From: an uncultured Agathobaculum sp.
GTDB taxonomy: Bacteria; Bacillota; Clostridia; Oscillospirales; Butyricicoccaceae
Length of the DNA: 64,000 nt
Reading direction: 5' to 3'
NCBI GenBank assembly: GCA_944384725.1
Contig: CALWUJ010000001.1
Coordinates: 104,138-168,137, forward strand
The first letter of the stretch is position 1; every line of letters starts with the position of its first letter. Below, one piece after another: positions 51,597 through 64,000 of the stretch. The notes under the pieces were generated by a model. It made no database searches and was not told where the DNA came from. It saw nothing but the letters and a program-made list of their open reading frames with translations. The translations under genes and the position numbers were made by a program.

Positions 51597-51645
51597 ATTA
51601 AACGGCCGCATCAAGCGTCCGTTATTCTGAGGAGGATGATAGAAC

Positions 51646-53214
51646 ATGAAGAAAGTAAGCATTATCTCGGCGGAAGAGGCCGCGCTCAAGGTTCAGGATG
51701 GCGACACCATCGCCACCGGTGGCTTTGTCAGCTGCGCTTGCCCGGAAACCCTGTCCAAGGCGCTGGAGAAGCGTTTTCTTGAGACCGGCCACCCAAACAA
51801 CCTGACCCTGTTCTTTGCAGCCGGTCAGGGCCACCGCGACGGCACCGGCGGCGACCACTACGGCCATGAGGGCATGGTCAAGCGCGTCATCGGCGGTCAC
51901 TGGGACCGCGCACCGCGTCTGGGCGAGCTGGCACTGAACAATAAGATCGAAGCCTACAACCTGCCGCAGGGCGTTATCTCGCACATGTACCGCGATATCG
52001 CCGCGCACAACATCGGCACGATCACCCACGTCGGTCTGAAGACTTTTGCCGACCCGCGCAACGGCGGCGGCAAGCTCAACGACGTGACCAAAGAAGATCT
52101 GGTCAAGATCGTCAACATCGAGGGTCAGGAGCGCCTGCTGTACAAGGGCTTCCCGATCAATGTGGTATTCCTGCGCGCATCTTACTGCGACGAATACGGC
52201 AACTGCACCGTACATAGAGAAATCGGCCCGCTGGACGTTACCGCAATGGCACAGGCGTGCAAGAACTCGGGCGGTAAGGTCATTGTACAGGTCGAGAAGA
52301 TTGTACAGGGTGGCTCGCTCGATCCGAAGCTGGTTGCCATCCCGGGCATCTACGTTGACTCGGTTGTCGTCGGTTCGGACGAAGAGAACATGCAGTGCCT
52401 CGGCATGCCGTATGACGGCGCGCTGACCGGCGAATTCCGCATCCCGGTGGACGCCATCCCGCCCATCCCGATGGACGCTAAGAAGATCATCGCCCGCCGC
52501 GCCGCTATGGAGCTGCCGCAGGACGCAATCGTCAACCTCGGCACCGGCGCACCGGAGAAGATCGCCAACGTTGCAGCGGAAGAAGGCATCTCGGACAAGA
52601 TGACCCTGACCGTCGAGGCTGGCTCGATCGCAGGCGTTCCCTACGGCGGCACCCAGTTCGGTGCAGCGGCAAACGCCATGTGCATCATCCCGCACAACGT
52701 ACAGTTTGACTTTTATCAGGGTGGCGGCCTTGATGTTGCGTTCCTCGGCCTTGCTGAGACTGCACCCAACGGCGACCTGAACGTTTCCAAGTTCGGCACC
52801 CGTCTGGCCGGTGCGGGCGGCTTCATTGACATCACCCAGAACGCGAAGAAGGTCGTTTACTGCGGCACTTTCACAGCAAAGGGCCTCAAGACCGCCTGCG
52901 AGGACGGCAAGCTTGTCATCACGCAGGAAGGCGCGAAGAAGAAGTTCGTCAACCAGGTCGAGCACATCACCTTCTCCGGCGACTACGCCAACGAAGTACA
53001 TCAGCCTGTCCTGTACATCACCGAGCGCGCCGTGTTCGAGCTGCGTCCGGAAGGCGTCACCCTGATCGAGATCGCACCGGGCATCGACCTGCAGACCCAG
53101 GTGCTTGACCAGATGGAATTCGAGCCCAAGATCGCTTACCAGCCGGACGGCTCGATCAAGTTGATGGACGCTCGTATCTTCCGCGACGAGCTGATGGGCC
53201 TGGCGAACGATTAA
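51646..53214 (+). CDS. Family I acyl-CoA:acetate CoA-transferase (propionate CoA-transferase-like)
   Basis: Moves CoA between acyl-CoA and carboxylates by a glutamyl-CoA intermediate. The 522-residue product carries both halves in one chain: alpha part with VQDGDTIATGGFVSCACPETL and GGHWDRAPRLGELA; beta part with AMELPQDAIVNLGTGAPEKIANVAAEEG and the catalytic Glu in LTVEAGSIAGVPYGG. The position next to abfD suggests activation of 4-hydroxybutyrate to 4-hydroxybutyryl-CoA; propionate, lactate or acetoacetate are alternatives. AGGAGG precedes the ATG. Confidence 0.9.
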   Translation: MKKVSIISAEEAALKVQDGDTIATGGFVSCACPETLSKALEKRFLETGHPNNLTLFFAAGQGHRDGTGGDHYGHEGMVKRVIGGHWDRAPRLGELALNNKIEAYNLPQGVISHMYRDIAAHNIGTITHVGLKTFADPRNGGGKLNDVTKEDLVKIVNIEGQERLLYKGFPINVVFLRASYCDEYGNCTVHREIGPLDVTAMAQACKNSGGKVIVQVEKIVQGGSLDPKLVAIPGIYVDSVVVGSDEENMQCLGMPYDGALTGEFRIPVDAIPPIPMDAKKIIARRAAMELPQDAIVNLGTGAPEKIANVAAEEGISDKMTLTVEAGSIAGVPYGGTQFGAAANAMCIIPHNVQFDFYQGGGLDVAFLGLAETAPNGDLNVSKFGTRLAGAGGFIDITQNAKKVVYCGTFTAKGLKTACEDGKLVITQEGAKKKFVNQVEHITFSGDYANEVHQPVLYITERAVFELRPEGVTLIEIAPGIDLQTQVLDQMEFEPKIAYQPDGSIKLMDARIFRDELMGLAND

Positions 53215-53258
53215 GTTCCGATTTTTTCTGTGTGAGTGTTGTGCAGATGTTGGGTATA

Positions 53259-53276
53259 TTGTTAATCGTTTAACAA
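53259..53276 (+). promoter_or_regulatory. Rex operator upstream of thl
   Basis: TTGTTAATCGTTTAACAA matches the clostridial Rex consensus TTGTTAA-N4-TTAACAA at all 14 fixed positions. It lies 16 bp before the -35. Rex represses when NADH/NAD+ is low and releases when NADH is high, so thl-crt-hbd would be induced by reducing pressure. Confidence 0.88.
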
Positions 53277-53292
53277 ACTTTCGTAAAACCCC

Positions 53293-53320
53293 TTGCAATT
53301 CTCCACACTTTTGATAAAAT
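53293..53320 (+). promoter_or_regulatory. Sigma-A promoter of thl-crt-hbd
   Basis: TTGCAA (53293-53298), 16 bp, TAAAAT (53315-53320). Start of transcription near 53327 gives a ~70-nt leader. Confidence 0.78.
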
Positions 53321-53394
53321 ATTAACGAACTCGAAAGAGACATCAAACTGCACCGGTGCGTCCGGTGCCAGAGAAGAAAAGGAGTAACAGCCAA

Positions 53395-54582
53395 ATGAAC
53401 GTTTACATCTGTTCCGCTGCCCGTACCGCTATCGGCACTTATGGCGGCACCCTCCGCGACGTACCTGCCGCTCAGCTCGGCATCGCTGCTGCCAACGCTG
53501 CTGTTGAACGCGCTGGCGTTGACAAGGCCGCTATCGACGAATGCCTGTTTGGTCAGGTATTGCAGGGCGGCGTTGGTCAGAACGTAGCCCGTCAGGTATC
53601 TCTCGGTATCGGCATGCCGCTTGAGACCCCTGCCATGACCCTCAACAAGGTTTGCGCATCCTCCATGCGTGCCATCTCCCTGGGCTCTCAGATCATCCGC
53701 TCCGGCGAGGATCAGATGATGCTGGTCGGCGGCTGCGAGTCCATGTCTGGCGCACCGTACATCTCCCGCAACATGCGCTGGGGCGCTCGCATGAACGACG
53801 TGAAGTTTGTTGATATGATGGTTTACGACGGCGTGTTCGACGTATTTAACCAGTACCACATGGGCATCACCGCGGAAAACGTTGCCGAGCAGTACGGCAT
53901 CACCCGCGAGATGCAGGATCAGATCGGCTACGAGTCCCAGATGAAGGCTGCCAAGGCAATTGCTGACGGCCGCTTCAAGGACGAGATCGTTCCGATCGAA
54001 GTCAAGAAGAAGAAGGAAACCATTATCTTTGATACCGACGAGCACTGCCGCCCGCAGACCACTCTCGAGGGTCTGGCTAAGCTGCGTCCGGCCTTCAAGA
54101 AGGACGGCACGGTTACCGCAGGCAACGCTTCCGGCATCAACGATGCAGGCGCAGCGATGATTATCGCATCCGAGGACTTCGTCAAGGCACACGGCCTCAA
54201 GCCGCTGGCTAAGATCCGCTCCTTCGGCTCTGTCGGCTGCGATCCGTCCATCATGGGCATCGGCCCGATCGAGTCCACCCGTCAGGCTCTCAAGCGCGCT
54301 GGTCTGACCGTTGCTGACCTCGATCTGATCGAGTCCAACGAGGCATTTGCTGCACAGGCTGCTGCGGTTAACCGTGAGCTCGGCTTTGACATGGATAAGG
54401 TCAACGTCAATGGCGGCGCAATCGCTCTCGGCCACCCGATCGGTGCAGCAGGCTGCCGTATCACCACCACCCTGCTCCACGAGATGATCAAGCGCGACCT
54501 GACCATCGGCCTTGCCACCATGTGCATCGGCGGCGGCATGGGCGAAGCTCTGATCGTAGAGCGCGACGAGCTCTGCAAGTAA
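53395..54582 (+). CDS. thl: Acetyl-CoA acetyltransferase (thiolase)
   Basis: Condenses two acetyl-CoA to acetoacetyl-CoA, the entry to the acetyl-CoA route of butyrate formation. The ATG at 53395 after AAGGAG gives 395 residues. The acylation Cys lies in [12 protein letters not shown], the His in [17 protein letters not shown] and the second Cys in [27 protein letters not shown] opens the protein. Length is normal. First gene of a three-gene Rex-controlled cluster with crt and hbd. Confidence 0.97.
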
Positions 54583-54707
54583 TCACCGGCAGACAGCTTT
54601 TCGCACCCTCTCCGCATTGATTCCTGTAATTTGAACGGGTATCCGTCAGGCTATTCAGCTCTGACGGATATCGGTTCGTCAGAATGATTGAAAGGAAGTC
54701 TTTATCA

Positions 54708-55523
54708 ATGACTGATGTAGTAGTTGAGAAAAAAGGCCATGTAGCGGTCGTCAAGATCGAGCACATGAAGGCGATGAACGCGCTTTCCACCGACATGTAT
54801 GCGCAGCTGGAAGAGGCGTTTGACGAAGTCGGCAAGATGGACGACGTTTACTGTGTCGTTCTGACCGGCTCCTCCACCGTGAACAAAAAGGGCAAGACGG
54901 TCAACTCTTTCGTCGCTGGCGCTGACATCGCTCAGATGTCCACCATGACGGTTGAAGAAGGCAAGTTCTTCGGCAACGACTCCAACCGCGTCTGCTGGAA
55001 GATTGAAAACTTCAAGCGCCCGGTCATTGCAGCGATCAACGGCTTCTGCCTCGGCGGCGGCTGCGAGCTGGCAATGAGCTGTGACATCCGTCTGGCATCC
55101 GACAACGCACTGTTCGGCCAGCCGGAAGTTGGTCTGGGCATCACCCCGGGCTGCGGCGGCACCCAGCGTCTGGCCCGCATCGTTGGTTTGGGCAAGGCCA
55201 AGGAGCTGATCTACACCGCTCGCGGCAACTACACCGCTCAGCAGGCACTCGAAATGGGTCTGGTCAACTACGTATATCCGCTGGAAAACCTGATGGACGA
55301 AGCCATGAAGCTGGCAGAAGAAATCGCGTCCCAGGCTCCGATCGCGGTTGCACTGTGCAAGGAAGCCATCAATGTCGGCATGCAGACCGACCTGAATTCC
55401 GCTCTGAAGTTCGAGGGCAACGTATTCGGTCAGTGCTTCGCTACCGAGGATCAGAAGTACGGCATGGCTTACTTCCTCGACAAGAACAAGGATAAGCCTG
55501 CGAAGGAATTCAAGAACAAGTAA
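54708..55523 (+). CDS. crt: 3-hydroxybutyryl-CoA dehydratase (crotonase)
   Basis: Dehydrates 3-hydroxybutyryl-CoA to crotonyl-CoA. The ATG at 54708 follows AAAGGAAG at 9 bases; an in-frame ATG at 54684 has no such site. The 271-residue crotonase fold shows the oxyanion-hole segment SFVAGADIAQM, the first catalytic Glu in FCLGGGCELAMSCDIRLAS and the second in FGQPEVGLGITPGCGGTQRLAR. A few extra residues (STVNKKGKTVN) lengthen the loop before the oxyanion hole. Second gene of the thl cluster, 125 bp after thl. Confidence 0.95.
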   Translation: MTDVVVEKKGHVAVVKIEHMKAMNALSTDMYAQLEEAFDEVGKMDDVYCVVLTGSSTVNKKGKTVNSFVAGADIAQMSTMTVEEGKFFGNDSNRVCWKIENFKRPVIAAINGFCLGGGCELAMSCDIRLASDNALFGQPEVGLGITPGCGGTQRLARIVGLGKAKELIYTARGNYTAQQALEMGLVNYVYPLENLMDEAMKLAEEIASQAPIAVALCKEAINVGMQTDLNSALKFEGNVFGQCFATEDQKYGMAYFLDKNKDKPAKEFKNK

Positions 55524-55567
55524 GCGTTTTTCTGAATTGATAAGAGTGAGAGAGAGGTTATAATATC

Positions 55568-56434
55568 ATGAAAGTTTGTGTATTCGGCGCCGGCAACATG
55601 GGTGCGCGCATTGCGGAAGTATTTCTGACCAACGGCCATGAGGTCACCATGATCGACATCAAGCAGGAGTTCGTTGATCGCGGTGTCAAGACCATCACCA
55701 ACGACCTGTCCTTCCTCGTAAAGAAGGAAAAGATGACCGAGGATCGCAAGAACGAGCTGCTGGCTGGCCTGAAGACCTCCATTGACCGCAAGGCTGCTGC
55801 AGATGCTGACTTCGTTATGGAAGTTATCCTCGAGCGCATGGACCTGAAGAAGGAACTGCTGGCTGAGCTGGACGAGATCTGCCCGGCACACACCATTTTC
55901 GCAACCAACACCTCTGCTCTGTCCCCGACCGAGCTGGCGGCTTCCGTCAAGCGTTCGGATAAGGTCATCGGCTGCCACTTCTTCAACCCGGCTCAGATCA
56001 TGAAGCTGGTTGAGGTTACCCGTGCAATCCAGACTTCGGACGAAACCTTCAAGACCGCATTCGATCTGATGGCTTCTCTGGGCAAGACCCCGGTTACCGT
56101 ACAGGAAGGCCCGGGCTTTGTCGTAAACCGCATCCTGATTCCGATGATGAACGAGGCTATGGGCATTGTTGCTGACGGCATCGCTTCCCCGGCAGACATC
56201 GATATCGCAATGCAGCTGGGCGCTGGCATGAAGTCCGGCCCGCTCCACACCGCTGACCTGGTTGGCCACGACGTTAACCTGGCAATCATGGAGACCCTGT
56301 ACCGCGAGACCGGCGACCCGAAGTACCGTCCGCATCCGCTGATGCGCAAGATGGTTCGCGCTGGCTGGCTAGGTGTCAAGACCGGCAAGGGCTTCTTCGA
56401 ATACGACGAATTCGGCAAGGAAATCGTAAAGTAA
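55568..56434 (+). CDS. hbd: 3-hydroxybutyryl-CoA dehydrogenase
   Basis: Reduces acetoacetyl-CoA to 3-hydroxybutyryl-CoA. The 288-residue product has the Rossmann start VCVFGAGNMGARIAEVFLTNGHEV, the catalytic His in DKVIGCHFFNPAQIMKLVEV and Glu in the same block, and the C-terminal dimer domain (GFVVNRILIPMMNEAM; FFEYDEFGKEIVK). Length matches clostridial Hbd. It ends the cluster; a strong terminator follows, so bcd and etfBA are not co-transcribed and are not in the window. Confidence 0.96.
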   Translation: MKVCVFGAGNMGARIAEVFLTNGHEVTMIDIKQEFVDRGVKTITNDLSFLVKKEKMTEDRKNELLAGLKTSIDRKAAADADFVMEVILERMDLKKELLAELDEICPAHTIFATNTSALSPTELAASVKRSDKVIGCHFFNPAQIMKLVEVTRAIQTSDETFKTAFDLMASLGKTPVTVQEGPGFVVNRILIPMMNEAMGIVADGIASPADIDIAMQLGAGMKSGPLHTADLVGHDVNLAIMETLYRETGDPKYRPHPLMRKMVRAGWLGVKTGKGFFEYDEFGKEIVK

Positions 56435-56449
56435 TCTGTTTATACAAGC

Positions 56450-56487
56450 AGAGGCTACTGTGCAAAACGCACAGTAGCCTCTTTTTT
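56450..56487 (+). terminator. Terminator of thl-crt-hbd
   Basis: A perfect 14-bp stem (56450-56463 with 56469-56482) followed by TTTTTC. Confidence 0.92.
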
Positions 56488-56603
56488 CTTTCGATTTTTT
56501 TGTTGCTTTATCTACATTTATCGCTTTCTTCTAACATTTGTTTGGCAAAATCAACAAATTTTGCAGCAATCTATGGCATTTCTCGAACAAACAGGATATA
56601 ATA

Positions 56604-57122
56604 TTAAATATCTGGGAAATAACATTTTACCAATGCGGCTGAAGCGGCAAAAGCTGCCAAATCTGCGCATAACGCGGCCGGTATGGCATAGCGCATTTGC
56701 TTTAATCCCAAGTGGCCACCATAAATGCTAATGGTGTATAAACTGGTTTCAGAAGCGCCCAGCATTACGGCTGCGACCCGGCCAATATAACTGTCCGGCC
56801 CATAGCGCCCAATCAGCTCACTGCCGAGCGCAAGGCCACCGCCGCCGCTGATCGGTTTGAGCAGCGCCAGTGCCACGCAGTCTTTGGGAATGCCAAACAC
56901 ACCGAACAACGGCGCCAGCCACCCCGCCGCCAGGTCAATTGCACCGGATGCCCGTAGCATATAGACCACGGTCAGCATCCCAACCAACGTGGGCAAAATA
57001 CTCACAGCTGTGTGCAATCCTTTTTGTGCTCCGCGCAGGAATACCGGGAACACATCCACCTGTTTATACAATGCGTATAAGCCGATTGCTGCCAGAAGCA
57101 GCGGAATCAGTGTTGCCTGCAC
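56604..57122 (-). CDS. spmB: Spore maturation protein B
   Basis: A 172-residue nucleoside-recognition (Gate) family membrane protein needed with SpmA for spore core dehydration. Five hydrophobic stretches and the Gate pattern ALLKPISGGGGLALGSELIGRYGPDSYIGRVAAVMLGASETSLY are present. The predicted start is GTG at 57122 with AAAGGAG about 14 bases upstream, longer than ideal. It lies 143 bp after spmA; in most genomes the two genes nearly touch. The gap is AT-rich and shows no hairpin that I trust. Confidence 0.93.
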   Translation of the reverse strand: MQATLIPLLLAAIGLYALYKQVDVFPVFLRGAQKGLHTAVSILPTLVGMLTVVYMLRASGAIDLAAGWLAPLFGVFGIPKDCVALALLKPISGGGGLALGSELIGRYGPDSYIGRVAAVMLGASETSLYTISIYGGHLGLKQMRYAIPAALCADLAAFAASAALVKCYFPDI

Positions 57123-57265
57123 AACTTTTCTACGCGCTCCTTTCCATCATTTTTGACGTTAATTTCAAATTTTGGAAAATTATTTTGGAAATAACAGGTA
57201 ATTCGACATCTTTTGTGTCCGCTTTATGTAATAATACAAATTGTAATCCAACTAAACATTTCCTT

Positions 57266-57850
57266 CTATTTTTCCGCACGGAACCAAGGCCGCATCAGTC
57301 TTCCGCTGAGCAGCACGACCGCCACCGAAAAAATGGACGCGCCCCAAACCGGCAGCATAATGTCAAACGGCGATGCAGCGCCGCATGCTGCCCGCACGGC
57401 CGCCACCGTAGAAGGAATCAACTGGATGGATGCAGTGTTCAAAGTAATCAATGTCAAGACGGTATCCGGCGAACCGCGCCGTCCTTCCAACGTATAAAGT
57501 CGGTCTGCGGCACGCAGGCCGAGCGGTGTGGCTGCATTGGATAATCCCAACAGGTTTGCCGCGACATTTGCGCTGACCGCCTCCATAGCTTCACGGTCTG
57601 CCGACGCTTTTCCAAACAGCGGACGCAGCAGCGGCATCAACATACGGGACAGTTTTTCCGCTAAGCCGGAAGCCTGCACTAGTTCCATAATGCCGCTCCA
57701 GAAGCACATCAGGCCGGCTATGCTGATGATGAGTGTAACCGCTTCCCCGGCCCCGGTGCCGACCGCTGTCGTTACGGCATCCAGCCTTCCGGTGAACGCG
57801 CCGCAAATCAGCGCCAAAACCAGAAATGCAACCCAAATGGCGGATAGCAT
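57266..57850 (-). CDS. spmA: Spore maturation protein A
   Basis: Partner of SpmB in the forespore or mother-cell membrane. The ATG at 57850 (194 residues) is about 9 bases after GAGAGGGGG; a GTG two codons upstream is possible. Hydrophobic segments alternate with the Gate motif: VTLIISIAGLMCFWSGIMELVQASGL, ANLLGLSNAATPLGLRAADRLY and TLNTASIQLIPSTVAAVRAACG. Divergent from the AbrB-type gene. Presence of both spm genes and spoIIID indicates an endospore former. Confidence 0.94.
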   Translation of the reverse strand: MLSAIWVAFLVLALICGAFTGRLDAVTTAVGTGAGEAVTLIISIAGLMCFWSGIMELVQASGLAEKLSRMLMPLLRPLFGKASADREAMEAVSANVAANLLGLSNAATPLGLRAADRLYTLEGRRGSPDTVLTLITLNTASIQLIPSTVAAVRAACGAASPFDIMLPVWGASIFSVAVVLLSGRLMRPWFRAEK

Positions 57851-57940
57851 CCGCACAATCCCCCTCTCTGTCCAAGCTCCCCCAGCGGGGTTTTGGTGAT
57901 ACAAGATTCGACTGAAAAGAAATGAAGGAGTGTTTCACAC

Positions 57941-58183
57941 ATGAAGTCTACCGGTATTGTCCGAAAAGTGGATGAACTTGGCCGTATCGTGCTGCCCATC
58001 GAATTGCGCCGTACGATGAACATAGACGTCAAGGATGCCCTGGAGATTTACGTAGACGGCGATCAGATTGTTCTGAAGAAATATGAGCCGTCCTGCATCT
58101 TCTGCGGCAATGCAAAGGATATCATCCATTACAAGGGCAAAAATGTATGTGCGTCCTGTGCACAGGAACTCAAACTGCTCTAA
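57941..58183 (+). CDS. AbrB-family transition-state regulator with C-terminal zinc ribbon
   Basis: An 80-residue DNA-binding protein: swapped-hairpin domain STGIVRKVDELGRIVLPIELRRTMNI (1-45), then a short tail with two cysteine pairs, CIFCGN and CASC, that should bind zinc. This layout is common in clostridial AbrB homologues. AAGGAG lies 11 bases before the ATG. It probably controls entry into sporulation or stationary phase, in keeping with spmA and spoIIID next door. Confidence 0.93.
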   Translation: MKSTGIVRKVDELGRIVLPIELRRTMNIDVKDALEIYVDGDQIVLKKYEPSCIFCGNAKDIIHYKGKNVCASCAQELKLL

Positions 58184-58195
58184 TATCAGCGTCTT

Positions 58196-58231
58196 ACAGC
58201 CATCCCACGATTCAGGGATGGCTGTTTTTTG
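58196..58231 (+). terminator. Terminator of the AbrB-type gene
   Basis: Perfect 11-bp stem ACAGCCATCCC (58196-58206 with 58215-58225) and TTTTT. Its right arm overlaps the end of convergent spoIIID. Confidence 0.88.
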
Positions 58232-58508
58232 ATGCCATCCGTCTGGTACGCTCGTCGGCAGCCTGCGCCCGATATTTCTCCCGCGTCGCCATACCCCCGC
58301 GAATGTGCCGCTCCTCTTTATTCGTTTGCAAAACAGTCTGTACTTGCTCGTACAGCACCGCATTGAGCTTTTTCAGGCGTGTGGTAATATCCTTATGTAC
58401 CGTTGATTTGGATACGCCAAATTGCGCCGCAGTCTGCCGTACCGTCGCTCCCTCCTGAATCATATATTGTGCCAGCCGGATTGTACGCTCCTCTGGTAAG
58501 CCTTTCAC
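58212..58508 (-). CDS. spoIIID: Sporulation regulator SpoIIID
   Basis: Mother-cell transcription factor that acts on sigma-E genes. The GTG at 58508 with AGGGGGG 7 bases upstream gives 98 residues. RTIRLAQYMIQEGATVRQTAAQFGVSKSTVHKDITTRL is the helix-turn-helix, followed by the basic tail HIRGGMATREKYR. Upstream on the minus strand, an ATA element at 58568-58574 and CATAGATT at 58548-58555 loosely resemble a sigma-E promoter. Confidence 0.95.
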   Translation of the reverse strand: MKGLPEERTIRLAQYMIQEGATVRQTAAQFGVSKSTVHKDITTRLKKLNAVLYEQVQTVLQTNKEERHIRGGMATREKYRAQAADERTRRMASKNSHP

Positions 58509-58632
58509 CGTCGTCCCCCCTGACCTGTTGACGCTTTCATTACTCTCAATCTATGCGTCATCCAGACCGTATAGAACGCGGTTTCTAGTGTTTGCCGTAT
58601 GGCAACAATCATCTGCCGCTACCGAAAAGAAA

Positions 58633-58662
58633 AATGCGCTGCTCTTACTTGAGCAGCGCATT
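58633..58662 (-). terminator. Terminator of the TetR gene
   Basis: Perfect 12-bp stem (58633-58644 with 58651-58662); on the minus strand it is followed by TTTCTTTTC. The right arm covers the stop codon and last codons of the gene. Confidence 0.82.
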
Positions 58663-59232
58663 GATGCCATTGGTGTGATATTCCACCAACCGATTGAGGT
58701 TCATACGCACCTCACGCGGCCGAACACGGTTTTTGAGAATCTGCACCGTACCGTCGATCAGATTACGGGCCATGATCTGCGCGATTAGCAGGCTGTTGTC
58801 CTCGTCCGCAAGCAGCGGTGCGGTCTTGGCCGCCAGCATGTCAATCATGCTCTTGCGAAGTTCCTCGTACCGCGTGCCGTGAGACTGCTCCATAATGAGC
58901 AGCAGCCCGTACTTTTCCGCCAGCAGCAGCGAAATAACCTCCTCTGTCAGCAGCACCTGATATTCGCGCTGTCCGGTACGCGGATCGAAGCGCTTATCCT
59001 TGAACCGCAGAATCAGCTTTTTTAATCCCGCAGCCGCACCGTCGGTCAATTCATAAAACAATTCCTCTTTGTTCTTGAAGTAATGATACAAGTTGCTCTT
59101 GCTGATATTCACCTTATCCGCAATCATTTGCAGAGAGGTTCGGTCATATCCCCGCTGCAAAAACAAATGCTGCGCTTCCAGCAAAATCTTATGCCGAAGC
59201 TCATCCTTTAACACCTGCACAATAAAGACCAC
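58645..59232 (-). CDS. TetR-family transcriptional regulator
   Basis: A 195-residue repressor. The N-terminal helix-turn-helix reads ILLEAQHLFLQRGYDRTSLQMIADKVNISKSNLYHYFKNKEELFYEL; the C-terminal ligand domain is unassigned. The likely start is GTG at 59232, but no strong ribosome binding site is visible and a GTG at residue 7 is possible. No transporter or enzyme is directly adjacent on the same strand, so its target is unknown; the decarboxylase operon ends 140 bp away. Confidence 0.88.
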   Translation of the reverse strand: MVFIVQVLKDELRHKILLEAQHLFLQRGYDRTSLQMIADKVNISKSNLYHYFKNKEELFYELTDGAAAGLKKLILRFKDKRFDPRTGQREYQVLLTEEVISLLLAEKYGLLLIMEQSHGTRYEELRKSMIDMLAAKTAPLLADEDNSLLIAQIMARNLIDGTVQILKNRVRPREVRMNLNRLVEYHTNGINALLK

Positions 59233-59323
59233 CCGTTCATTTCTTGTTTTTATTATAGCATTTCTGGTTTTTTTGTCAATAATCGGGCAGTTCCTTTCCT
59301 ATTTTGTGTCTGCATACAAAAAG

Positions 59324-59358
59324 AAAGGACGTCGGATTTCCGACGTCCTTTTTCTTTA
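59324..59358. terminator. Terminator of the decarboxylase operon
   Basis: Perfect 12-bp stem (59324-59335 with 59340-59351, loop ATTT) with A-rich left and T-rich right flanks, 20 bp after the oadB stop; on the minus strand the left A-run reads as the T-tract. Confidence 0.85.
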
Positions 59359-59371
59359 TCAAAACGCTATT

Positions 59372-60523
59372 TTATGCACCGAAAACCTTGAGCATAAAGC
59401 CTGCGGCCACGGCAGAACCGATTACGCCGGCCACGTTCGGACCCATGGCGTGCATCAGCAGGAAGTTGGCCGGGTTTGCCTTCTGTCCTTCCACCTGCGA
59501 CACACGCGCCGCCATCGGAACCGCAGATACGCCTGCCGAACCGATCAGCGGGTTTACCTTGCCGCCGGTCAGCTTGCACATGATCTTGCCGAAGATCAGG
59601 CCGCCGATGGTGGAGAACATAAACGCAATCAGGCCAAGAATGATGATCTTGATGGTGTCCCACGTCAGGAACGTGCTCGCAACCGCCTTGCAGCCGACCG
59701 ACAGGCCGAGGAAAATGGTCACGATGTTGCATAGCGCGTTCTGTGCGGTATCAGACAAACGCTCGGTCACGCCGCACTCACGCAGCAGATTGCCCAGCAT
59801 CAGCATACCGATCAGCGGCGCCGTATCCGGAATCAGCAGGATGACGACGGTTGCAACCGCGATCGGGAATACGATCTTCTCGGTCTTGGAGACCGGACGG
59901 AGCTGCTCCATCTTGATCTCGCGCTCTTCCTTGGTGGTCAGCAGGCGCATGAGCGGCGGCTGAATCATCGGGATGAGCGCCATATACGAATACGCGGCAA
60001 TCGCGATGGCGGGCAGATAGTCGCGCGCCAGACGCGAAGCAACCAGAATCGCCGTCGGGCCGTCTGCACCGCCGATGATACCGATAGCCGCAGCCACTGC
60101 ACCCGGGAAGCCGAGCGCCAAAGCCAGCAGGAACGCAGCGAAGATACCCAGCTGCGCCGCCGCACCCAACAGCAGCGAGGAAGGACGCGCGATCAGCGGA
60201 CCAAAGTCGGTCATCGCACCGATACCAAGGAAAATAATCGACGGGTAGATCGCATGCTCAACACCCTGATAGAACACCCACAGCATACCTGGGCTGGAGG
60301 TAGCAGTCGGCGCATTGAGCAGACCCGTGATCGGGAAATTCGCCAACAGCATACCGAATGCAATTGGAATCAGCAGCAGCGGCTCAAATTTCTTGCCAAT
60401 ACCCAAATAAAGCAGCACAAAGGAGATCAGGATCATAATCAGATTGCGCGGATCGTTCGCCAAAGCGGCAAAACCCGAACCTGACAGAATCTCTCCCAGC
60501 GCACCGATAAACGAAAATTGCAT
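59372..60523 (-). CDS. oadB: Na+-translocating decarboxylase beta subunit
   Basis: The membrane pump: decarboxylates carboxybiotin and exports Na+. The 383-residue product has ~10 hydrophobic segments and the family blocks [36 protein letters not shown] (with the Asp essential in Klebsiella OadB), [19 protein letters not shown] and [25 protein letters not shown]. Fourth gene of the operon with the carboxyltransferase, OadG and the biotin carrier. Substrate (oxaloacetate, methylmalonyl-CoA or glutaconyl-CoA) depends on the alpha subunit. Confidence 0.95.
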
Positions 60524-60539
60524 ATTCGTGCGCCTCCCG

Positions 60540-60929
60540 TTACATCGTGCAGAGTGCCGCGCCGGTTTCTACCGTCGCGCCCTTCTGTACGCTGACCGAG
60601 CCTACCGTACCGTCATGCGGCGCACAGATTTCGTTTTCCATTTTCATGGCTTCCAGAATGAACAGCACATCGCCTGCCTTGACGGCCTGTCCTGCCGTGC
60701 AGCGTACATCCAGAATCGTGCCGGGCATCGGAGCGGATACGATCTCGCCGCCTGCCGGTGCGGCAGGTGCCGGGGCTGCTGCCGGAGCCGGTTTCGCCGC
60801 CGGAGCTGCGGCAGGTGCAGCGGGTGCCACCGGTGCTGCGGGTGCATTACCAACAGCTACCGCACTGACCGAGCCTTTTTCCACTTCTACTTCATACTGT
60901 TTTCCATTCAGCGTAACCATATATTTCAT
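60540..60929 (-). CDS. Biotin carboxyl carrier subunit
   Basis: A 129-residue carrier. Residues 1-25 start the N-terminal part, ~28-62 is an Ala/Pro-rich flexible linker ([20 protein letters not shown]), and ~63-129 is the biotinyl domain with the target Lys in [11 protein letters not shown]. It shuttles CO2 from the carboxyltransferase to the beta subunit. It lies 14 bp after oadG. Ala/Pro linkers of this kind are typical of Na+-pumping decarboxylases. Confidence 0.95.
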
Positions 60930-60943
60930 CGTTTGCTTCCCCC

Positions 60944-61270
60944 TTAAACCGCCTTGATGGATTTGAACACAAGCTGATCGAGCGGAATGCCCGTCTCATG
61001 GCTGACGATTGCCATGACACAAGCCGCTTGCGTCTCGTCAATGCCTTCCAGCACAACCTGCTGCGATGCCGCCGGTGCTGCCGCACGCGCTGGTACTGCC
61101 GCAGGGGCAGGAGCAGACATGACAGGCACTTGATGATGCTCCACGCCGGAAACCACACGGGAAATCACCAGAATGACTCCCCACAGCAGCGCAAGCATGA
61201 GGAATACGATGACAAAACCGGACAGCGCCACGACCAGCGCATCCAACTGGCTCAACGGATCTCGAACCAT
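60944..61270 (-). CDS. oadG: Na+-translocating decarboxylase gamma subunit
   Basis: A 108-residue protein that tethers the complex. One N-terminal membrane helix ([26 protein letters not shown]) is followed by an Ala/Pro-rich part ([18 protein letters not shown]) and a soluble tail ([29 protein letters not shown]). AAGGAGG precedes the ATG. Only 2 bp separate it from the carboxyltransferase stop. Confidence 0.9.
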
Positions 61271-61272
61271 AA

Positions 61273-62649
61273 TCAGCCGACCTCCTTAAACGAATAGCTT
61301 GCCGTAAAGGTTTTTTGACGACGGTCAAAAAACTGTTCCGCCTGCTGCGGGAAGGCGATGAAAGAAAGCACGTCTTCATCGCAGCGTGCACGGTCGCCCA
61401 GATACGATTTGGCAACCTCAAACTCGGCCTCCAACGTTTCTGCGTAGCGTCCGGTAATAGGCTGCTCATCGCCCAGCACCTTTTTGGCCAGCTCCGGATT
61501 GATCGTACCAGGGGCTTTTCCGTACTCACCCCTGATATAGCTCTTGATTTCCTTGCCGATGGACTTATACCGTTCACCCAGCAACACGTTTACCGTCGCC
61601 TGTACGCCAACCATCTGGCTCAGCGGCGTGACCAAAGGCGGATAGCCCAAATCCGCACGCACGCGCGGCGTCTCGTCGAGTACTGCATCCAGCTTGTCGA
61701 TTGCGTTCTGTGCTTTGAGCTGCGCCACCAGATTGGACAGCATGCCGCCGGGAATCTGATAAATAAGCGCATCGGTTTTGGTAGACAGCACATAGGGATC
61801 GAACATGCCGTTTTCCGAAAATTTCTCCTTGACCGGCAGGAAGAAACTGTTGATCCGATTGAGTTCCTGCGCATTGATGCCGCAATCGTAGCCCATTTGC
61901 GTCAGAGCGTAAACAATCGACTCGGTCGCGGGTTGGCTCGTGCCGCCCGAGAAGCAGGAAGTCGCGCAGTCAATACCTGCCGCGCCCGCTTCTGCAGCCT
62001 TGAGGTAGGTCATATATCCCAACCCGGTCGTAGCATGCGTATGCACATAAATCGGCAACCGGACGTTCTGCCGCAGCGCTGTTACCAAATCATAGCACTC
62101 CTGCGGAGACATAATGCCCGCCATATCCTTAATACACAGCGAGTTGCAGCCCATCCGCTCGATCTGCTTGCCCAGCGAGACAAACATATCCAGATTGTGG
62201 ATCGGACTAAGCGTATAACAGATGCAGCCCTGCGCATGTCCGCCTGCCTTGAGGCACTCGTCCACTGCAGTCTCAATATTACGCAGATCGTTAAGCGCAT
62301 CGAAAATACGGATGATGTCCATACCATTTTCAATACTCTTGCGCACAAATCGGCGCACCGTATCATCCGAATAATGACGATATCCCAACAAATTCTGTCC
62401 GCGCAGCAGCATTTGCAGATTGGTATTTTTCATGTGCGACTTGATTTTTCGCAAACGCTCCCAAGGATCCTCGTTCAGGTAACGCAGGCAGCTGTCGAAG
62501 GTCGCACCGCCCCAGCATTCGATAGAATGATAGCCGGCTCGATCCATTTCATCCAGCACAGCTTCAAAGTCATCAAACGGCATACGGGTTGCGATCAACG
62601 ACTGCTGTGCATCTCGAAGCACAGTTTCGGTGATATGCATTTGTTTCAC
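61273..62649 (-). CDS. Carboxyltransferase subunit (oxaloacetate decarboxylase alpha / PycB-like)
   Basis: Transfers the carboxyl group from the substrate to biotin. The GTG at 62649, with AAGGAGGG 7 bases upstream, gives 458 residues; an ATG three codons later lacks good spacing. The HMGL-like TIM barrel shows ITETVLRDAQQSLIATRMPFDD, IECWGGATFDSCLRYLNEDPWERLR, NSLCIKDMAGIMSP (biotin-site Lys) and YVHTHATTGLG (metal His). It ends before the biotin domain, which is a separate gene. Oxaloacetate is the likely substrate, as all these motifs match OadA and PycB. Confidence 0.93.
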   Translation of the reverse strand: MKQMHITETVLRDAQQSLIATRMPFDDFEAVLDEMDRAGYHSIECWGGATFDSCLRYLNEDPWERLRKIKSHMKNTNLQMLLRGQNLLGYRHYSDDTVRRFVRKSIENGMDIIRIFDALNDLRNIETAVDECLKAGGHAQGCICYTLSPIHNLDMFVSLGKQIERMGCNSLCIKDMAGIMSPQECYDLVTALRQNVRLPIYVHTHATTGLGYMTYLKAAEAGAAGIDCATSCFSGGTSQPATESIVYALTQMGYDCGINAQELNRINSFFLPVKEKFSENGMFDPYVLSTKTDALIYQIPGGMLSNLVAQLKAQNAIDKLDAVLDETPRVRADLGYPPLVTPLSQMVGVQATVNVLLGERYKSIGKEIKSYIRGEYGKAPGTINPELAKKVLGDEQPITGRYAETLEAEFEVAKSYLGDRARCDEDVLSFIAFPQQAEQFFDRRQKTFTASYSFKEVG

Positions 62650-62813: not shown

Positions 62814-62842
62814 TTGACATTTCATTTCAAATGCAGTAAGAT
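62814..62842 (+). promoter_or_regulatory. Strong promoter of the tRNA array
   Basis: Consensus TTGACA (62814-62819), 17 bp, TAAGAT (62837-62842), 78 bp before the first tRNA-like unit. Confidence 0.75.
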
Positions 62843-62919
62843 AAATAAATAGTCTGCGCTGCGCGCTTTCTTGCTAATGCAGGCAAATAAGTTTATTATC
62901 TTCATATTCTTTTTCATAT

Positions 62920-63000
62920 GCCCCTGTAGCTCAGTTGTATAGAGCGACCGCCTCCTAACATCCGGCAGGCCTCTGTCCGCTGACGCCGCAAAACTGAATA
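62920..63000 (+). pseudogene. Degenerate tRNA-Arg(CCU)-like unit 1
   Basis: The first 39 bases (acceptor 5' strand, D arm and anticodon loop CTCCTAA) align with the intact gene at 63310; the anticodon stem cannot pair (ACCGC with CATCC). The 3' half keeps only a loose match (CAGGCCTCTG). The unit ends with AAAACTGAATA, the same spacer seen after other units. Confidence 0.65.
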
Positions 63001-63012
63001 TTTCCTCAACAC

Positions 63013-63091
63013 GCCCCCGTACCTCACCGGGATAGAGGGTCCGCCTCCTAAGTCTATGCTCACCTATCACCCGGCGAGGAAAAATTGCATA
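63013..63091 (+). pseudogene. Degenerate tRNA-Arg(CCU)-like unit 2
   Basis: Begins GCCCCCGTACCTCAC; CGCCTCCTAA again lies exactly 29 bases from the unit start (63042-63051). The anticodon stem and T arm are lost. Ends AAAATTGCATA. Confidence 0.65.
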
Positions 63092-63092
63092 T

Positions 63093-63168
63093 GCCCCGGT
63101 ACCTCAGTTGGATAGAGGGTCCGCCTCCTAAGGTCATGTTATAACGCTCAACTGGATAAAATTGAATA
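63093..63168 (+). pseudogene. Degenerate tRNA-Arg(CCU)-like unit 3
   Basis: Begins GCCCCGGTACCTCAG, CGCCTCCTAA at 63122-63131. The 3' half bears little likeness to tRNA. Ends AAAATTGAATA, then 48 bases of unrelated sequence precede unit 4. Confidence 0.65.
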
Positions 63169-63216
63169 AGGGATTGCAGTTCGACTTTGGTCGGGCTATA
63201 ATCATATATTAGACAC

Positions 63217-63297
63217 GTCCATATAGCTCAGCTGGATAGAGCACTCGCCTCCTAAAAACCGAATCGTTCGAATCCTGGAGCCCTGTAAAATTGAATA
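63217..63297 (+). pseudogene. Degenerate tRNA-like unit 4
   Basis: Begins GTCCATATAGCTCAGCTGG, CGCCTCCTAA at 63246-63255. It retains a T-loop sequence GTTCGAATCC (63266-63275), 4 bases closer than in the intact gene, but the anticodon stem does not pair. Ends AAAATTGAATA. Confidence 0.65.
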
Positions 63298-63309
63298 TTT
63301 TCTGTATAC

Positions 63310-63386
63310 GCCCCCGTAGCTCAGTTGGATAGAGCGGTCGCCTCCTAAGCGACAGGCCACTGGTTCGAACCCAGCCGGGGGTGCCA
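63310..63386 (+). tRNA. tRNA-Arg (anticodon CCU), CCA encoded
   Basis: A complete 77-base tRNA. Acceptor GCCCCCG pairs with CGGGGGT (a G-U at pair 1-72), discriminator G, then CCA. D arm GCTC/GAGC, anticodon arm GTCGC-CTCCTAA-GCGAC with anticodon CCT, T loop TTCGAAC. It reads AGG codons. It is the last of five tandem units and the only one that folds. A tyrosine recombinase gene lies just beyond its 3' end. Confidence 0.93.
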
Positions 63387-63392
63387 AAAACG

Positions 63393-63432
63393 ACCGTTGT
63401 AAGCCATTTTTGATGGTTTACAGCGGTTTTTT
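63393..63432 (+). terminator. Terminator of the tRNA-Arg transcript
   Basis: 15-bp stem (63393-63407 with 63413-63427, two G-U pairs) followed by TTTTT. Confidence 0.85.
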
Positions 63433-63500
63433 GTTACCGTTTTCTCGGAGCGTTTTTGCTGCTCTACCGGAACGATTTTATACATTTTCCGCTGTATGCC

Positions 63501-63560
63501 TGCTAATTGGATTCGAACTATTTTTTCGGTCTTGCTAATAAAAAACACCGATTTGCTAAT
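63501..63560. repeat. Three TGCTAAT direct repeats near the recombinase gene
   Basis: TGCTAAT occurs at 63501, 63533 and 63554. Short direct repeats between an integrase gene and a tRNA often serve as arm-type sites for the recombinase; this is inference. Confidence 0.4.
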
Positions 63561-63574
63561 ACGATTTTCCCGCC

Positions 63575-64000
63575 CTATTTTTCGGATGGGGCCGACGCCA
63601 GCAATGCAGCCAGTGTGTTGGCCAGTTCCGGCGACTTGCGAAGCTGTTCCACCAGGGCCTCCAAATCCAATGTGGCGGGCGCCGGTTCCTTTGGTTCCTC
63701 CGGGGGACGAACCGAACGCAGGTCGGGATTGGCATAGAAGGCGCTCTCAAACTTCTGGGCGTTGATCTTGCGGTCCTCGTCCAGAATGTGGGCATACACG
63801 CTGGTGATCATGTCGATCTGAGCGTGGCCCGTATCACCCTGGGTGGCCTTCAGGTCGCCGTGGTTCAGCTTCAGCTTATAGGTCGTGCTGGAATGGCGGA
63901 GGGAGTGAAAGACCACTTTAGGCAGCCCTGCTTTCTCCCGCAGCTTCTCAAACGACTTCAGGATGATACGGTCCTCACAGGGGCGGCCATTGGCCAGCGC
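63575..64000 (-). CDS. Tyrosine recombinase (integrase), C-terminal part; 5' end outside window
   Basis: The frame is open to the window edge, so the start lies beyond 64000. The visible 141 residues hold the second half of the catalytic domain: HSLRHSSTTYKLKLN (the HxxR pair), GDTGHAQIDMITSVYAHI with the GHA/S His and the nucleophile Tyr, then a ~70-residue tail rich in Pro, Glu and Leu. The gene points toward tRNA-Arg, 190 bp away, the usual arrangement for an element integrated at a tRNA. The rest of the element is not visible. Confidence 0.88.
   Translation of the reverse strand, partial: ALANGRPCEDRIILKSFEKLREKAGLPKVVFHSLRHSSTTYKLKLNHGDLKATQGDTGHAQIDMITSVYAHILDEDRKINAQKFESAFYANPDLRSVRPPEEPKEPAPATLDLEALVEQLRKSPELANTLAALLASAPSEK

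Follow-up and report, generated by a model that had tools for sequence, protein, structure and literature searches.

An array of tRNA-Arg(CCU) 5' halves in Clostridia, very probably left by nested integrative elements that carry a replacement tRNA

The window analysed here, a stretch of 64,000 nucleotides from an uncultured Agathobaculum sp., ends in a compact region (62,814-64,000) holding a promoter-like site, four 5' halves of tRNA-Arg(CCU), a complete tRNA, a terminator-like stem, and the C-terminus of a tyrosine recombinase. If one counts the half within the complete tRNA, there are five 5' halves, whose starts are 93, 80, 124, and 93 bases apart. All share the anticodon loop CTCCTAA, and the block around it, CGCCTCCTAA, is found 29 bases past the start of every unit (n=5). 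Only the last half belongs to a complete gene. ARAGORN identifies a single tRNA in the whole window (63,310-63,386), and the sole Rfam match up to E=1 between 60,000 and 64,000 is RF00005 (63,310-63,383, 59.7 bits). When 93-base units were given to ARAGORN in isolation, units 1-4 returned 'no gene' and unit 5 a tRNA-Arg(CCT). The original prediction, which described five tandem units with only the 5' half kept and proposed to run a tRNA finder and a covariance model on each, was right on the count, on the offset of the anticodon-loop block, and on the state of the units, with both programs accepting unit 5 only. It also claimed a conserved block of 39 bases, of which the 29-base offset holds, but what all sites share exactly is the 7-base loop, because the flanking stems differ in other hosts (e.g., ..AACCC-CTCCTAA). 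The natural unit runs from loop to loop.

The features follow each other on the plus strand unless otherwise stated. A promoter-like TTGACA-17-TAAGAT (62,814-62,842), judged by consensus only (10/12 matches), is taken as the host promoter; it is the promoter that had been predicted ahead of the array, and the stretch has 3 such sites for a shuffled mean of 1.5. Next comes an orphan 5' half with its loop, h1 (GCCCCTG..ACCGC, then CTCCTAA; 62,920-62,958), which we interpret as the host side of attL of an element A; the same half stands within a complete tRNA in genome G018. Each of the four broken 5' halves is followed by a different stretch, hereafter y, of 41-85 nt. That of element A (54 nt, starting CATCCGGCAGG; 62,959-63,012; type1 in the classification below) would be the left end of this element. 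The orphan half h2 (63,013-63,051) is read as belonging to element A and as broken by element B, whose y has 41 nt (63,052-63,092, type27). In the same way, h3 (63,093-63,131) would be element B's, broken by element C, and h4 (GTCCATA..CTCGC; 63,217-63,255) element C's, broken by element D. The y of element C (85 nt, 63,132-63,216, type21) includes a second consensus match, TTGCAG-17-TATAAT (63,174-63,202), and cassette C is followed by a complete tRNA GTCCATA..TATGGAC in G012, G142, and G070. The y of element D (54 nt, starting AAACCGAATCGTTCGAATCC; 63,256-63,309) resembles a decayed tRNA 3' half. It precedes the complete tRNA-Arg(CCU) called by ARAGORN and Rfam, which we regard as carried by element D and as the working copy and the next target, and a terminator-like stem (63,392-63,428; 1 found, shuffled mean 1.0). 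On the minus strand, the C-terminal 141 aa of the tyrosine recombinase of element D (63,575-64,000; PF00589, 3.6e-7) confirm the predicted recombinase, and the contig ends there. The spacer AAAAyTGmATA, expected about 65-70 bases into the units, occurs at 62,990, 63,081, 63,158, and 63,287, i.e., 70, 68, 65, and 70 bases into units 1-4. Upstream of the array, the region 51,646-62,649 encodes proteins named by eye as CoA transferase-, thiolase-, crotonase-, and dehydrogenase-like, together with a decarboxylase-like set (biotin carrier, membrane subunit, carboxyltransferase). An ORF of 952 aa (51,622-54,480, minus strand) overlaps these metabolic genes and is probably spurious.

Very probably, the array consists of four stacked attL sites left by nested integrative elements that carry a replacement tRNA. 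A tyrosine recombinase would join the attP of an element (z-CTCCTAA-y) with the host tRNA-Arg(CCU) at its anticodon loop, CTCCTAA, with strand exchange presumably taking place within the 7-bp loop. The insertion would split the host tRNA, and the gene would not be rebuilt. Instead, the element would bring a complete tRNA-Arg(CCU), mostly 41-87 bp inside its left end and in line with the host promoter, and this spare tRNA would become both the working gene and the next attB. A further element would then enter the spare tRNA of the previous one. The 5' halves, on the host side of attL, would accumulate upstream, while the 3' halves, at attR, would end up downstream in reverse order. Among the causes listed in the original prediction, the linkage of cassettes and the displaced, matching 3' halves of relatives favour repeated integration, with the crossover in the anticodon loop. 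What it missed is the nesting: every unit would be an element's left end, and each of these elements would come with an entire new tRNA. As far as sequences can tell, relatives display the cassette linkage, the displaced matching 3' halves, their orientation and order, and the z-loop-y junctions, as well as, for several types, an integrase adjoining the replacement tRNA. Integration and excision of the elements are presumed, and the four nested bodies would lie beyond the end of the window's contig.

We searched the locus in 60 relatives and retrieved it from 29 of them, one locus per relative (L006-L034). At least 12 of these 29 loci have two or more consecutive 5' halves. The spacings between units are quantised (80/81, 92-94, 102/103, 113-116, and 123-127), with a few longer ones (e.g., 179 and 279), and units of identical type and length recur in independent genomes, shuffled like cassettes across genera. 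This recurrence puts the array beyond chance. When all loci were compared, we obtained 92 distinct units, which form 28 types; the replacement tRNA is 41-87 bp from attL in 88 of the 92. The 279-base unit of G028 (L045, L123) has a y of 240 nt instead of the usual 41-87 nt, and is perhaps the remnant of a decayed element.

Cassette D gives the clearest view of what travels together. It was found at 35 sites in named genomes, of which we kept the 33 with full flanks and dropped two cut by contig ends. These sites span Agathobaculum, Gemmiger, Faecalibacterium, Flavonifractor, Anaerotruncus, Anaerotignum, and others. The 32 bases that precede D make 27 distinct sequences with a mean identity of 0.68 (at two sites the preceding sequence is not a tRNA half), whereas the 5' halves that follow it make only 4, with an identity of 0.96 (GCCCCCG at 32 sites and GTCCCCG at one). 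Cassette C is followed by GTCCATA in 5/5 units and cassette E (type22) by GTCCCTG, also in 5/5. The following half is more conserved than the preceding one in seven of the eight types with at least three units. The sole exception is type1, the window's cassette A (3 units), which has no such asymmetry. In the complete tRNAs at the end of the arrays, the two halves of each gene fit together in the acceptor and anticodon stems (by reading).

The insertion model requires that 3' halves be found downstream, behind a foreign end, and this prediction was set before the search. We first met such displaced 3' halves in G044, G012, G048, G028, G033, G019, and G014. A pattern for them gave 37 matches in 35 of the 394 genomes of the order, and the reversed control pattern gave none. 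The 5' half ahead of the displaced 3' half is absent in all 31 of the 37 matches whose upstream context was read. We then scored the pairing of each displaced half with the orphan 5' halves of the same genome over 12 positions of the acceptor and anticodon stems, allowing G-U. This set comprised 30 of the 37 matches plus G019 and G014 (32 halves); G090, G284, G079, G358, G353, G238, and G181, whose arrays are outside the loci read, were omitted. In six genomes (G150, G405, G033, G049, G139, G042) the loci examined have no orphan-class half, which left 26 scored halves. Of these, 19 pair at 12/12 positions with an orphan 5' half of their own genome; 2000 shuffles gave 3.6 on average and never more than 11. 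The other seven are in G018, G005, G028 (11/12), G070, G048, G384, and G014; the one in G048 was scored against a mis-classified complete tRNA. We also joined halves and submitted them to ARAGORN, which called a tRNA in 9/9 matched joins but also in 41/72 mismatched ones. These calls do not discriminate, and the stem-pairing test therefore carries the argument. The window's own genome yielded no displaced 3' half; its assembly is 78% complete, and the contig of the window ends inside the integrase.

Where both parts are on one contig, the geometry is uniform. Displaced 3' halves lie downstream and on the same strand in 14/14 cases from 11 genomes (G012, G044, G048, G070, G142, G171, G202, G366, and G384, two in G360, and three in CCNA10), at distances from the array or replacement tRNA that range from about 3.5 kb (G048) to 231 kb (CCNA10). 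The original prediction would have counted relatives with intact 3' halves as a refutation; the outcome was unexpected, as relatives do have these halves, but kilobases to hundreds of kilobases away. The array has a fitting 5' half for ten of the 14, eight by the stem-pairing score and two pairs of CCNA10 by eye; those without are in G048, G070, and G384, plus one half of CCNA10. In G360, the partner of the second 5' half is 33 kb downstream and that of the first 99 kb downstream. In CCNA10, the intact tRNA (162,528) is followed by the partner of h5 (237,132), a GTCCATA-type half (281,464), and the partner of the first half (393,924). Both genomes thus follow a last-in-first-out order, which with so few halves is by itself weak evidence. 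The 5' unit of the GTCCATA-type half of CCNA10 is gone, which suggests that units can drop out of the stack.

Four other explanations were weighed against nested insertion. The best of them, although improbable, is that classical tRNA-targeting islands lie in tandem, each with an attP fragment that rebuilds the gene. It accounts for the class of recombinase and for the loop target, which many islands share (PMC4383910 and PMC8371274, in the parts available). Yet the y of units 1-4 does not rebuild a functional tRNA according to ARAGORN and Rfam, and the complete tRNA is inside the element: it is of the same isotype and travels with y across genera, and the arrays end with what ARAGORN calls a tRNA-Arg(CCT). 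We give even less credit to the idea, present in the original prediction, that the 5' halves form a functional non-coding RNA array, e.g., of tRNA-half decoys. A promoter-like site does stand upstream, so that the halves are probably transcribed together with the last tRNA, and a side role as RNA is possible. As the cause of the array, this role sits badly with units that recur in many genomes with the following half fixed and 3' halves downstream, with the variation between relatives in content, number, and order of the halves, and with G016 and G018, where the first halves have decayed away from the loop.

That a tRNA-Arg array was duplicated in tandem and then decayed, with the 5' halves kept by gene conversion or selection, was also among the predicted causes, and we hold it to be very improbable. 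It would explain five similar consecutive 5' halves and the T-arm-like GTTCGAATCC kept in 31 of 71 distinct y. However, the post-loop stretches fall into 28 types that are tied to the next half and common to several genera, the preceding half varies where the next one is fixed, and matching 3' halves occur downstream, on the same strand and behind foreign ends, in relatives. The T-arm-like stretch is concentrated in the y of 53-54 nt (29 of 42), which have the look of descendants of an attP formerly able to rebuild the tRNA. An artefact of repeat assembly, which the original prediction had allowed for and which might be suspected where contigs of several relatives likewise end within the array, is hardly credible given that the same units turn up in many different assemblies, among them the highly contiguous G012, G044, and G360 and the complete genome CCNA10.

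The right ends (z) of the elements group into families. One of them, Z1, is nearly identical in its last 60 bases across genomes from three families of the order. Searched with 2 mismatches, it gave 24 matches in 23 of the 394 genomes (the control had matches in 14 genomes). A tRNA 3' half follows in 19 of the 24, including a second tRNA-Arg(CCT) type, y follows in one (G317), and other sequence follows in four (G153, G157, G373, and one in G056). The non-tRNA sequences past Z1-CTCCTAA in G157 (L221) and G153 (L218) may be decayed or secondary integration sites. The sequence common to the sites is CTCCTAA, with flanks that vary among D sites and z ends. A second family, Z2, accompanies cassette C in both G012 and G360, where 60/60 bases are identical (by eye), and G118 has a Z2 variant with a related cassette. 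The pairing of right and left ends is nevertheless loose, because Z1 goes with D in G202, G171, and G245 and with other y in G142 and G317; Anaerotignum An390 joins D to Z3. We found two attP-like junctions of the form z-CTCCTAA-y-tRNA, in An390 (Z3 and D) and in G317 (Z1), which by their sequence look as an attP or a tandem insertion should. A circular contig was considered for the G317 junction, but there is no terminal overlap, so the two junctions may be tandem insertions rather than circles.

The integrase fragment in the window scores 30.6 bits with PF00589 (cut-off 27.1), and five relatives score 51-65 bits. Over its 141 aa, the fragment is 100% identical to the integrase that An390 has next to this cassette. 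An integrase is present, on the opposite strand, at every D locus with at least 494 bases of downstream sequence; it begins about 190 bases past the tRNA (239 in one partial match) and is 95.7-100% identical to that of An390 across genera. D loci with at most 313 bases of downstream sequence have none, as expected. Fifteen genomes have an intact tRNA but lack a recognised upstream unit; 14 of them show no integrase homologue in 0.47-3 kb of downstream sequence, and the remaining one, G033, does. The An390 junction, with an integrase and no upstream 5' half, was left out of these 15. Just downstream of cassettes C and E, we found no homologue of two reference integrases.

Some elements carry conjugation genes. 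The cassette-C element of G012 has an integrase and an excisionase-like gene at its right end, a CD1110-family VirB4 (1102 bits, cut-off 325), and a relaxase, and therefore combines the integrase, relaxase, and type IV secretion ATPase by which an integrative and conjugative element (ICE) is recognised. The region in G360 encodes a CD1115-family VirD4 (562 bits, cut-off 250), a relaxase, and an integrase. VirB4 and VirD4 are the features in common with the CD1110/CD1115-family conjugative elements of Clostridia, from which the elements described here differ in integration target and in the replacement tRNA. The CD1110/CD1115-family elements are akin to the CTn/Tn1549 elements. A phage or plasmid origin was considered and dropped: three patterns gave 0 matches in viral_contigs, and no phages or plasmids record covers 80% of the 529-base left end, with coverage of 15-20%, around the tRNA, among the matches listed (15 of 496 phages and 15 of 75 plasmids records). 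The viral null and the conjugation genes of G012 and G360 indicate that the elements, which work like a phage system, are not temperate phages.

The closest known system is the tRNA-dependent lysogeny of actinobacteriophages (Guerrero-Bustamante and Hatfull 2024, PMC10865867), which in the available parts of that article involves tRNA-Lys, tRNA-Ile2, or tRNA-Leu and is experimentally proven for several phages. There as here, a tyrosine integrase acts, the attB tRNA is not rebuilt, and the element brings a complete tRNA of the same isotype. The common core is of 8-17 bp in those phages and of 7 bp here. Unlike in the phage system as presented there, our elements are in Clostridia, use tRNA-Arg(CCU), have no match in the viral collections searched, include some with conjugation genes, have the replacement tRNA close to attL (41-87 bp in 88 of 92 units), and reuse it as the next attB. 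According to the same source, how far the system reaches beyond actinobacteriophages has yet to be studied; a single speculative sentence there suggests that a plasmid-borne tRNA might be entered by a second plasmid. Islander-type islands resemble the present elements in the integrase, the tRNA fragment displaced to the far end, and the common use of anticodon-centred sites; in the accessible sections of PMC4383910, however, the attP fragment restores the split gene, whereas in the present elements a second, entire gene takes over and the split one is left broken. The review PMC8371274, in the part available, likewise gives the classical route in which a fragment rebuilds the tRNA gene. Dehalococcoides also uses one site serially for many islands, at ssrA, but according to the portion of PMC3146451 at hand these islands are aligned at 3'-end repeats downstream of one intact gene, whereas the elements here nest and leave stacked 5' halves. 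Other candidates fit less well, within the extracts available: a replacement tRNA is not described for Tycheposons in PMC10872708, 'tRNA' is absent from the main text of PMC6907783, and PMC13041314 describes one ICE in a tRNA-Arg gene without the architecture of the array. The tRNA fragments left by integration receive a general treatment in PMC9897764, in its available part. We recognised no account of ICE-borne replacement tRNAs, 5'-half arrays, or the nested form in the open-licence PMC literature searched. The principle is known for phages, and its nested, partly conjugative form in Clostridia looks new. It takes tRNA-dependent integration beyond actinobacteriophages, to elements of another phylum that are apparently non-phage and in part conjugative, with a replacement tRNA able to serve as the next target, and accounts for half-tRNA arrays overlooked by tRNA finders. 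Each array reveals the type and order of arrival of its elements, and since the matching 3' half marks the far end, the limits of nested elements can be set with single-base precision.

Expression of the replacement tRNA seems to depend on what lies upstream. Promoter-like sites scoring at least 9/12 are found in 0/57 distinct y of 41-76 nt (1-11% in shuffled sequences, depending on length class) and in 6/10 y of 84-87 nt (9% in shuffled ones). Leaders ahead of the first half score at least 10/12 in 45 of 79 distinct 150-nt sequences, against 1.5% when shuffled, although these leaders are related and not independent. Most replacement tRNAs would then be expressed by read-through from the host promoter. 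The replacement tRNA may be necessary to the host; tRNA-Arg(UCU) might also read AGG. Taken jointly, these patterns allow a broader proposal, to which we give even chances: conjugative elements of gut Clostridia would own a mobile tRNA, and the working tRNA-Arg(CCU) of many lineages would be element-borne; the tRNA behind a short y would lack a recognisable promoter and be switched on only behind a host promoter, as in a promoter trap. Integration, tRNA supply, and dependence would be coupled, and each newcomer would seize both promoter and supply. The stack of half-tRNAs would then be a readable log of the elements' order of arrival. The findings further imply that a translation gene is turned over horizontally, and that losing the element may carry a built-in cost.

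The cargo of the elements is diverse. By eye, the 3.5-kb element of G048 and the 6.3-kb element of G044 have no conjugation genes; the latter has an IS21-like pair and a toxin-antitoxin-like pair (also by eye), and the former an AAA_15 ATPase gene with a small neighbour. This ATPase (L053:2788-4522) matches AriA and other defence ATPases. Its neighbour, a protein of 141 aa, has no match in Pfam, NCBIfam, or PADLOC, and the two may form an unnamed two-gene defence unit. In the element of G070 (L176:1554-7263), a cytosine methyltransferase is encoded beside a SoFic-like protein and a 703-aa protein with sensor-kinase-like and weak BbrUII-type restriction matches, possibly a restriction or defence cluster. 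The available portion of PMC12904643 concerns a different tet(W) element. In An390, a ribosomal-protection tetracycline-resistance-like gene (L244:11097-13016), which by eye resembles tet(W), is encoded near a VirD4-like gene (PF02534), a few kilobases away from the attP-like junction.
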